Below, piece after piece: positions 1 to 3,028 of a DNA stretch of 64,000 bases. Under the pieces are notes generated by a model, which had not been told where the DNA came from, made no database searches, and saw only the letters and a program-made list of their open reading frames with translations. The position numbers and the translations under genes are program-made. The DNA is from Vishniacozyma victoriae (Eukaryota > Basidiomycota > Tremellomycetes > Tremellales > Bulleribasidiaceae). Where the stretch lies: NCBI GenBank assembly GCA_017654735.1, contig JADPYG010000001.1:1-64000 (forward strand), read 5' to 3'. Position 1 is the stretch's first letter, and each line of letters begins with the position of its first letter.

Positions 1-608
1 GGCGACTTCACTTGGTGATCAAGGGGTAGTGTTTCATATTGCTTCCTTTTAGCACCGCTTTTCCTTTGTTCTCCTTCTAGCTACATCTCTCTCTTGTACT
101 TCATCTTTCTATGTATCTATCACATCGGCTTTAAGTGAATCTCACACTTCACCTATAGACATATATAAATCATGTCAAATATAAATCAAGTCAAAGGGCT
201 TCCTAGGATCTTTTTCTTGAGGCTCAGATAGACCAACGCATACACTCTATTTTCTCAGGCGTAGGCAGCTGTGAGAGTCTCTTCTAGCTAGTCCCCATCA
301 TGTATCCTTCGATCATCTTGTGTACACCTACTTATCACCTAAGCCAAGTACCACAAATTATCCTTCACCGTCTTGACTCATTCACACCTGACTGAACCTT
401 TGCCGTTCCTAGTCTGACAGGGACGGGCTGCGACAATCCGTGTAACAGAAATTGAGATCTCTTTGGTGAGCTCTGACAAGAATAAGCCAAGGGCGTTCAG
501 GTGCTGAGAGGTCAAGCGGTAATCAATCAGGGTAGCATGCAAAGAAATTATGAAAGACCTCGGTGGGAAACAAAGATCGTATAAAAGTATTGAATGGAAA
601 TCGATCGT
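1..608. other. Non-coding stretch, no gene seen
   Basis: No open frame here looks like protein and none can be joined to a neighbour by plausible splice sites. It precedes the first retroelement copy. I see no tRNA, no telomere repeat and no low-complexity array. It could hold the end of a gene that starts outside the window, but nothing supports that. Confidence 0.5.
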
Positions 609-613
609 GAAAC

Positions 614-848
614 TGGTAGAATCCAGCATGGTAACAGCACCAAAACCCCTGGTTACACATATCTAAAGATCGGCGGTTCAACTCCCTGGAGCGGCGGCAT
701 CGATCCTTAGCACAGGCGGCAGCAGACTGCCTCAAAAACGTACTACACCCATGATCTTGGAATGTCGCACGGGGGAGTGTCAGATATAAAGGTTCTGCTC
801 CTTATCCAAGAAGCAAATTGCTTTTTGGTGTAGTGGTAGAATCCAGCA
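614..848 (+). mobile_element. Miniature LTR element, copy 1 (RNA-shaped, lacking most of the 5-prime LTR)
   Basis: This 235-bp copy is identical, base for base, to 1980-2214. It begins with the 15 bases TGGTAGAATCCAGCA (614-628), continues through the 149-bp internal region (629-777) and ends with a full 71-bp LTR (778-848) whose last 15 bases repeat the first 15. It is flanked by a perfect 5-bp direct repeat, gaaac at 609-613 and again at 849-853, as expected of a target-site duplication. Compared with the full copy at 1924-2214 it lacks the first 56 bases of the 5-prime LTR. That is the shape expected of the transcript (R-U5-internal-U3-R) if the 15-base repeat is R plus U5. It has no coding capacity and would depend on proteins made elsewhere. 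Confidence 0.85.
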
Positions 849-1923
849 GAAACAGCATTAGCTGACTTTACTTTACAACATTCGGGGCTTGCCGAAGTTT
901 CTTGAGACTGGACGATTTCTTTTGATAGCGGACAAAACAAGAGACACGACGTCCACAAGAGGGAAAAATGGGGATGGTAGAGATCTGTACAATGCAAAGT
1001 TACGGGACGTCAATTGCGAAATCAAATGTAGCAGCAGAGCAAAGATATGCCAGACTGTGATGAACGAGCCATGCGATGAACGGCTGGTCCAGTGAATCGC
1101 ATATTTATGCAGCCATTACGAGACCAGAGTAAATGCAGTTCATTTCATTCCTTGCACTGTTGTGAGCGTAAGTCGTTCATTGCGGCACCGACATTTTATT
1201 TTGGCCCCTGCTTGTGGACTTTTGCCCATGGAAGCGTCTTGAACCATGACTTTTGTGTTCAAGGGATTCGCATGATTGCATCATTCTCCTCCATCATAGG
1301 AATTTACCTTAGCGCACCCGCATCCGGGAACTGGCTCGCACTAATTCATGCAGGAACCTTCAGCTTAGGTATGATTGCCGCTTGTGTCTGTGGTTGAGAT
1401 TTTTCGGTCTTGCCAATCAAGAACCTGAACTTGTCCAAAAACATTCAGGCCAATGATTGTCTGCTACCTTACTAATTCCTCGCCCAACCTAGTCACAATC
1501 TCAAGCGGATTGAAAGCAGACAGAGTGGTCAGCAAATAATTCTTGTCATCGGTGTATCTTTAGTAAATCACAAAAGGTGGGCGACAGTGGGGCTGTCGCA
1601 AATAATCTGGAAAAGATTGGCATGCGACTTTGCCAGCGAATATCTCTTACACAGCACCCTTCCTGACCCTTTAGGCTTTCGATCGGATCCGCTGCTACCT
1701 GCGTCACCATTCAGCTTACGTCTGAGTTTTTACCTGGACTTCCACCTTGGCTTCTATTCTCACATCGCTAGGATAGGGATTACAGCGCCAATTTTGGGCA
1801 GAAAGGTACGGATAGAACAAAAGAAACACATATGGATTGCCTAGCATCCCAGCCCGCTGTCACACGAGGTTCCTTCAACCGTATCGGCCGGAAGCACGTC
1901 GCTAGTGAGCGACATGACTCTAT
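849..1923. other. Non-coding spacer between the two element copies
   Basis: About 1.07 kb lying between the two miniature elements. The longest frame (about 100 codons near 1092-1397) shows no domain, no signal and no splice partner. This is unlikely to be the inside of a larger LTR element, because each flanking copy has its own, different, target duplication (gaaac and tctat). Confidence 0.5.
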
Positions 1924-1994
1924 TGTCAGATATAAAGGTTCTGCTCCTTATCCAAGAAGCAAATTGCTTTTTGGTGTAGTGGTAGAATCCAGCA
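1924..1994 (+). repeat. 5-prime LTR of the miniature element (71 bp)
   Basis: Begins TGTCAG and ends CCAGCA. It holds a TATA-like box at 1931-1938 and the 15-base segment TGGTAGAATCCAGCA at 1980-1994, which recurs at both ends of copy 1 and is the likely R/U5 part. If transcription starts near 1980, the TATA box lies about 45-50 bp upstream, a reasonable fungal spacing. Confidence 0.85.
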
Positions 1995-2143
1995 TGGTAA
2001 CAGCACCAAAACCCCTGGTTACACATATCTAAAGATCGGCGGTTCAACTCCCTGGAGCGGCGGCATCGATCCTTAGCACAGGCGGCAGCAGACTGCCTCA
2101 AAAACGTACTACACCCATGATCTTGGAATGTCGCACGGGGGAG

Positions 2144-2214
2144 TGTCAGATATAAAGGTTCTGCTCCTTATCCAAGAAGCAAATTGCTTTTTGGTGTAGT
2201 GGTAGAATCCAGCA
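2144..2214 (+). repeat. 3-prime LTR of the miniature element (71 bp)
   Basis: Identical to 1924-1994 and to 778-848. It follows the purine tract gggggag at 2137-2143 without a gap and is followed by the target duplication tctat at 2215-2219. Confidence 0.85.
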
Positions 2215-3028
2215 TCTATAGTGCCTTGCACTGCAATGACAGACTCCATGTAGGCCAAACGCAGACGTAAAGGAATGAACTTCTAAATTTATCAATTTTC
2301 AAATGCCAATCTATCTTTGAGCGCGGAAATTAGATCTAATTATCCGCATGTACTGTTTACATTTGAGTTGTTCCTCACATGGGTTCAAAGAGATCACATA
2401 CATGAAAAAGAGTGATGACTTGTTTCCGTCCGGTTTTAGAGGAGTGCTTCTCATCCAGGATCACCCTGGTCATGCATGGCTTCTGACTTTATCACTAACT
2501 ACTAGTAGGAAGATTGTTCACAACCGACTATGCAACATGTACCGGTTTTATGGCGGCGAAGCGTTTAGTAATGGACTAATGACATGTTGTTGCCCAGACT
2601 GCTGGTCCATCCTGGAAGCTTTGAGATCGAGGCGGCATCGTACGGCGATAGGGAAGATCGGAGAGTAGGTAAGCCTCGGTGGAATAGGCCAGACTGTTGT
2701 CGACCAGTCGCAACAGCTGATCGATGTTAGAGCTTCTAACTGACGTAGACCGGGACTATCAACGATCATTCTACAATGTCTTGTTCCCGAACTACAAGAC
2801 AACAAAGGCCAGTCAGAATTAGCAAGAAAGGAATAATTTCTCACCGTAACAACGGGTCGCCTGATGCCGACTATCTTGACATATACTATATATTTGGCAC
2901 AACACTACGCGGGATCCGAACCAATTCCCTCGTTGTTGTTCGTCAATAGAGTGGTAGATTCTGGCGAGTGATACTCCTCTGCTTTTTTATCTTCGCAATG
3001 ATAGAACCCCATGCATGATCAAAACGTA
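2215..3028. other. Non-coding stretch, no gene seen
   Basis: Short frames on both strands (for example about 106 codons at 2348-2668) have no recognisable composition or splice partner. The right end is the 3-prime flank of the AAA ATPase gene that reads leftward and stops at 3029. Confidence 0.5.

Follow-up and report, generated by a model that had tools for sequence, protein, structure and literature searches.

Introduction

LTR retrotransposons driven by RNA polymerase III (Pol III) form a small and only recently named group. According to Kojima (2024; PMC10886601) a single lineage of such elements, Cassandra, counts as validated. A second type, Helenus, is linked there to Copia elements in its fungal representatives through the likeness of their primer-binding sites. 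The fungal host species given for Helenus in Table 1 of that paper belong to the Pucciniales and the Agaricomycetes, and the string "tremell" is absent from its text. Among open-licence publications no Helenus-like element or Pol III TRIM from Tremellomycetes was found, although some genome papers on fungi do mention TRIMs, and a term search of PMC3248453 and PMC12262581 returned nothing on TRIMs. An exact 21-nt pattern from the LTR described below was likewise absent from a viral-contig and a genome-contig collection, a result of little weight as both collections are non-fungal.

Miniature LTR elements of the SMART type, which also leave solo LTRs (PMC3281118), are the closest systems with respect to size. 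The plant elements FRetro129 (292 bp, 85-bp LTRs, 5-bp duplication; PMC3281118) and CcaRetroS9 (233 bp, 52-bp LTRs; PMC4717578) fall in the same size class as the 291-bp element presented here, and the parts of these papers that were available mention no Pol III boxes for either. The first-pass annotation of the present sequence had called its size extreme, which the published elements contradict; small size was accordingly dropped as a new feature, equal and smaller elements being on record.

The window, i.e., the whole stretch of DNA analysed, is the first 64 kb (64,000 nucleotides) of contig C1 of Vishniacozyma victoriae, and the genome searched comprises 11,579,354 bases on 17 contigs. For a histone deacetylase ORF in the window, the best named relatives among the matches listed (120 of 8000) are from Tremellomycete fungi, namely Tremellales sp., Saitozyma and Kwoniella (64-68% identity); the same matches include two closer, partial proteins, at 93 and 89% with a query coverage of 68%.

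Results

Structure of the Element

The TRIM-like structure proposed for positions 1924-2214 is borne out by sequence comparison. The unit measures 291 bp, is bounded by identical 71-bp repeats of the form TG..CA, carries a purine tract and is enclosed by a TCTAT duplication (Table 1). Features of TRIM/SMART elements seen in it are two TG..CA LTRs, a length below 1000 bp, a noncoding sequence, a target-site duplication in the range of 4-6 bp and the polypurine tract GGGGGAG. The claim that coding capacity is lacking also stands, the longest ATG ORF in the element being 34 aa. A scan for exact direct TG..CA repeats with a 4-6 bp duplication, covering both strands of 19 stretches including the window (~220 kb, the all-N start of contig C12 being omitted), returned this element as its sole match.

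No tRNA was found in the element by ARAGORN or by Rfam (E<=10), and the element is not a tRNA. Between positions 500 and 2500 of the window the Rfam matches at E<=10 included no ribozyme family, and the hammerhead of retrozymes was among the features not found. A hairpin at 2084-2097, suggested earlier to be a packaging or dimerisation signal, does occur in the predicted fold, with a stem of 5 bp and a loop of 4 nt. The suggested role is without support, as the internal region folds like shuffled sequence (z -0.97; 32 of 200 shuffles equally or more stable). Downstream of the element, Rfam weakly matched the plus strand at 2405-2492 to SNORD33 (E 1.5; 21 bits, gathering score 44), which may reflect a C/D-box snoRNA or chance.

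Table 1. Features of the miniature element and its copies. Positions are those of the window unless a contig is named.
Feature	Position	Strand	Basis
Left target-site duplication TCTAT	1919..1923		Sequence comparison
5' LTR, 71 bp, TG..CA	1924..1994	+	Identical to 2144-2214 and to all 7 genome LTR matches
TATAAA, 41 nt upstream of A box	1931..1936	+	Pattern position
A-box-like TGGTGTAGTGG, start of 13-nt word common to tRNA gene L054	1972..1982	+	Pattern and word comparison
Primer-binding-site candidate TGGTAACAGCACC, TGG start, directly after 5' LTR	1995..2007	+	Position only
B-box-like GGTTCAACTCC, internal region, 69 nt from A box start	2041..2051	+	Pattern
Small hairpin GGCAG-CAGA-CTGCC	2084..2097	+	Predicted fold
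Polypurine tract GGGGGAG, abutting 3' LTR on its 5' side; kept in C2 copy	2137..2143	+	Sequence
3' LTR, 71 bp	2144..2214	+	Identity to 5' LTR
T5 run, putative Pol III terminator; first run of at least 4 T past B box	2188..2192	+	Sequence
Right target-site duplication TCTAT	2215..2219		Sequence comparison
Left duplication GAAAC of second copy	609..613		Exact edge of homology
Second copy, 235 bp, without first 56 bp of left LTR	614..848	+	100% identical to 1980-2214
Right duplication GAAAC of second copy	849..853		Exact edge of homology
Near-full copy, 289 bp	C2:515736-516024	minus	Genome search
Lone LTR, exact LTR boundaries	C2:516825-516895	plus	Genome search
Piece cut by contig start	C10 1-127		Genome search

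A tRNA-Gene-Like Promoter Layout

The first-pass annotation recognised the core of a non-autonomous LTR retrotransposon correctly but overlooked a promoter layout like that of a tRNA gene. Pattern comparison with the tRNA genes of the same genome places a TATA sequence, an A box and a B box at tRNA-gene spacing, followed by a T5 run in the 3' LTR. TGGTGTAGTGG fits the consensus of the tRNA A box and GGTTCAACTCC that of the B box, both forms having been picked with the element sequence already known. When the 220-bp unit was shuffled with its dinucleotides kept, 3 of 20,000 shuffles gave a strict A..B pair. A scan of 440,496 bases (19 stretches, both strands) found just three such pairs, all of them copies of the element. 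The strict pattern is specific rather than sensitive, because a tRNA-Leu gene (L027) lying within the scanned stretches was missed.

The tRNA genes used for comparison are 20 of the 26 places listed and make up an incomplete set; ARAGORN calls an intron in 16 of them. The distance from A box to B box is 69 in the element vs. 42-73 in the 13 of 20 genes where both boxes were found by pattern. The element has ATAT at -42 from the A box, TATAAA beginning one base closer. In the range of 36-48 nt upstream of the A box, which was fixed after the positions had been seen, ATAT starts in 14 of the 20 tRNA genes and in 4.3% of random 16-bp stretches; it is absent there in the other six genes. ATAT is frequent upstream of the tRNA genes of this fungus (L066-L085; 14/20), as if a TATA sequence belonged to their promoter. 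TTTT occurs within the last 14 bases of 15 of the 20 tRNA gene stretches. A T5 run is also found in the 5' LTR directly upstream of the A box, where it might cause an early Pol III stop, and TTTT stands at the same place in a tRNA-Cys gene (L050). The 220-bp unit has a 13-nt word in common with one of the 20 tRNA genes, L054, which is Ala(TGC) by ARAGORN. Of 1000 random stretches of 220 bp, 4 had a match of this length and none a longer one. A derivation of the element from a tRNA gene would rest on this one word.

These data have to be weighed against the possibility of a conventional TRIM with a TATA in U3 at which Pol II acts, the A and B boxes being a coincidence or a relic. The LTR structure alone needs no Pol III, the TATAAA could equally serve Pol II, the element is maintained without a tRNA fold, and a T5 run directly upstream of the A box fits Pol III poorly. 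On the other hand, chance would seldom supply the A..B pair, as the shuffles indicate, and the TATA stands at the distance found in tRNA genes while the spacing of the two boxes lies inside the range of this genome's own tRNA genes. Transcription by Pol II is regarded as the clearly less probable explanation, though still a serious one.

Copies and Marks of Insertion

Five loci of the element were found in the genome. This count, like other repeat counts here, is a lower bound, contig C10 starting within the element. All seven LTR matches genome-wide are 100% identical over 71 bp. The first-pass annotation had asked for such a search and named the finding of no other copies as grounds for abandoning its reading; further copies do exist. 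It had also noted a second identical copy nearby. The identity holds at 100%, but the copy is only 235 bp long (614-848) and 56 bp of its left LTR are absent, so that the TATA and most of the A box are missing upstream of its internal region. This copy is a separate insertion, since it has a perfect GAAAC duplication of its own exactly at the ends of homology. Its start, TG at position 57 of the LTR, suggests that the shortening preceded its insertion.

In its internal region the near-full copy on contig C2 differs from the window copy by four substitutions and two one-base deletions (96% identity). The piece at the start of C10 has both deletions and lacks the first of the substitutions. These internal differences imply at least two sub-lineages that share one LTR.

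It was predicted that copies would be flanked by different 5-bp duplications, and this holds in part. TCTAT at the given element and GAAAC at the 235-bp copy are seen directly and lie exactly at the ends of homology, the chance of a given 5-bp match being ~1 in 1000. Neither of the two C2 copies, which lie in opposite orientation, has a duplication as it stands. When the 800-bp spacer between them is turned back, the solo LTR gains TGCGT on both sides, a third duplication reached by way of an inferred inversion. The full C2 copy (289 bp) has unlike flanks even after the inversion is undone, and the C10 copy is cut at the contig end. The flanks of the pair suggest an inversion of 800 bp between the full copy and the solo LTR. 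Taken together, the five loci, the two different 5-bp duplications, the lone LTR and the identity of the LTRs throughout support the earlier claim of recent movement of a small non-autonomous LTR retrotransposon.

Could the element instead be a SINE of tRNA origin that entered by target-primed reverse transcription and has an incidental terminal repeat? The A and B boxes would fit this, and the copy at 614-848 is truncated at its 5' side and abuts its duplication at both ends, a pattern that LINE machinery yields. The TG..CA ends, the purine tract, the lone LTR with exact boundaries and the 5-bp duplications speak against a SINE. An A-rich or simple-repeat tail is absent, and the single RVT_1 match in the assembly lies behind an LTR and offers no LINE partner. 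Such an origin is very improbable. Equally hard to credit is a segmental duplication of subtelomeric or repeat-junction sequence with no mobile element involved: the loci are only five, near contig ends or in repeat-rich stretches, and the C2 pair sits in an apparently inverted stretch, but two different perfect 5-bp duplications mark the exact ends of homology and, among the stretches compared, the flanks of the loci have only the element and a second LTR family in common.

Priming and Possible Helper Elements

The primer-binding site proposed in the first-pass annotation is confirmed in position, TGG standing directly after the first LTR at 1995, but it matches none of the tRNAs compared. 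An uninterrupted 12-nt match to the site was sought throughout the genome and gave six matches: four lie in copies of the element, and the other two, outside it, were judged by eye not to be tRNAs. Comparison of 20 tRNAs (of 26 listed) with the complement of 1984-2034 yielded one 7-nt word in one tRNA 3' tail and nothing more. The tRNA 3' end TGCTGTTA behind a T loop was matched twice, neither match being a tRNA by ARAGORN or Rfam. A D-arm pattern for the initiator Met tRNA found none in the genome. A pattern of the tRNA-Asn anticodon loop plus intron gave six matches, including one in a Gly(TCC) gene called by ARAGORN and one in an Ala gene (L049); two others of the six were inspected, neither of them a tRNA. 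Self-priming was also considered, as TTTTGGTG of the LTR could pair by eye with the adjacent internal CACCAAAA, and was dropped because synthesis would start 9 nt off the LTR edge.

The plant SMART FRetro129 has internal sequence in common with an autonomous element (PMC3281118); none was found for the 291-bp element. An autonomous element sharing LTR ends or primer site, as anticipated in the first-pass annotation, did not emerge among the resident LTR-element pieces compared, contigs breaking within those elements. With blastn-short at E<=1 the element gave no match to the Copia-like LTR, the Gypsy-like LTR, part of the Gypsy-like internal region or the C10 contig end.

The assembly has one RVT_1 match (two candidates scored), at the extreme end of C12 behind a 651-bp LTR, and the contig ends inside the match. 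The element concerned appears to be Gypsy-like. Gypsy-like pieces with a 651-662-bp LTR are seen at the C12 end (L032, L033), the C13 start (L027) and the C7 start (L021).

A second family has LTRs of 156-157 bp (TGTGAGA..TCTCACA) and was found on C1, C2 (twice), C4, C10 and C16, one copy being flanked by ACCTT on both sides. It lies at several contig breaks (window 1-146; L006 3722-3878 and 8209-8335; starts or ends of L018, L024, and L030). The start of C15 (L029), with its TAACCCCC-like repeats, is probably a telomere end; repeats common to C8 and C9 come next. Read in one orientation, the 156-157-bp LTR is followed by GGTTATGAGCC on C16 and preceded by GAGGGGAGG on C10. GGTTATGAGCC is a possible primer-binding site complementary to the anticodon loop of initiator Met tRNA, and with these two sequences the family would fit a Copia element. 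The sole RVT_2 match in the assembly is a fragment beside such an LTR (C10:13141-13245, plus strand, in L024), scoring 22.7 bits against a cut-off of 31.6, and its strand is opposite to the LTR orientation implied by the primer-binding site and the purine tract. The integrase domain (rve) had no match in the assembly. The Copia-like LTR ends (GAGGGGAGG before, TGTGAGA, GAATCTCACA) appear faintly similar to the ends of the miniature element, whose primer-binding-site candidate differs from the Copia-like one.

Discussion

The element is interpreted as a non-autonomous LTR retrotransposon of the TRIM/SMART type that would carry a tRNA-gene-like Pol III promoter, a reading given a probability of roughly 0.7 on the strength of its sequence. 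Its best reading is that of a Pol III-type TRIM resembling Helenus ("TRIMp3") with a promoter that would be split, TATA and A box lying in the LTR and the B box in the internal region. Its RNA would probably be made by the enzyme that transcribes tRNA genes, and its mobility would depend on the machinery of another retrotransposon. Pol III transcription may begin in the 5' LTR, near its position 35-40, and terminate in the 3' LTR at the T5 run (2188-2192). The resulting RNA would be ~230 nt long and end in a repeat of ~10-15 nt usable for first-strand transfer. Reverse transcriptase and integrase for producing and inserting the cDNA would come from a different LTR element, for which the resident Copia-like family is a possible source.

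It is tempting to go further and propose that the promoter is divided in a functional sense, the 5' LTR being completed by the internal B box and the identical 3' LTR acting as terminator only, and that this arrangement, along with a Pol III TRIM in a Tremellomycete, is undescribed in the literature searched. This proposal is tentative, and its chances are put slightly below even. With the B box placed outside the LTR, the 5' LTR alone would gain a complete promoter, and neither a lone LTR nor the left-truncated copy would have one. A family of 291-bp elements, low in copy number and housed in a compact fungal genome, would be a tractable case of how Pol III RNA enters the LTR pathway. The shortest terminal RNA repeat that supports strand transfer, and the recognition by a helper without evident shared sequence, could be studied in it as well.

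Among the described systems Helenus, as presented by Kojima (2024; PMC10886601), comes nearest. It too is a miniature LTR element that leaves solo LTRs, has 5-bp duplications in its fungal members and carries tRNA-like A and B boxes; a functional tRNA is absent. The lengths given there are 311-1263 bp vs. 291 bp here, and the primer-binding sites of fungal Helenus match tRNAs, whereas the present candidate matched none of those compared. Helenus has both boxes in the LTR and the present element has only the A box there, the B box being internal. By its anatomy the element may be called TRIMp3-like, yet it lies outside the definition of Helenus and is classed here as a TRIM whose promoter anatomy is of the Pol III type. 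Cassandra, in the same source (PMC10886601), differs in being a plant element of 565-860 bp with a 5S rRNA promoter that lies entirely in the LTR. The predicted route of transcription is nevertheless alike, with a Pol III start in the 5' LTR, a stop in the 3' LTR and a short terminal repeat in the RNA, 18 bp in Cassandra and an inferred ~10-15 in the present element.
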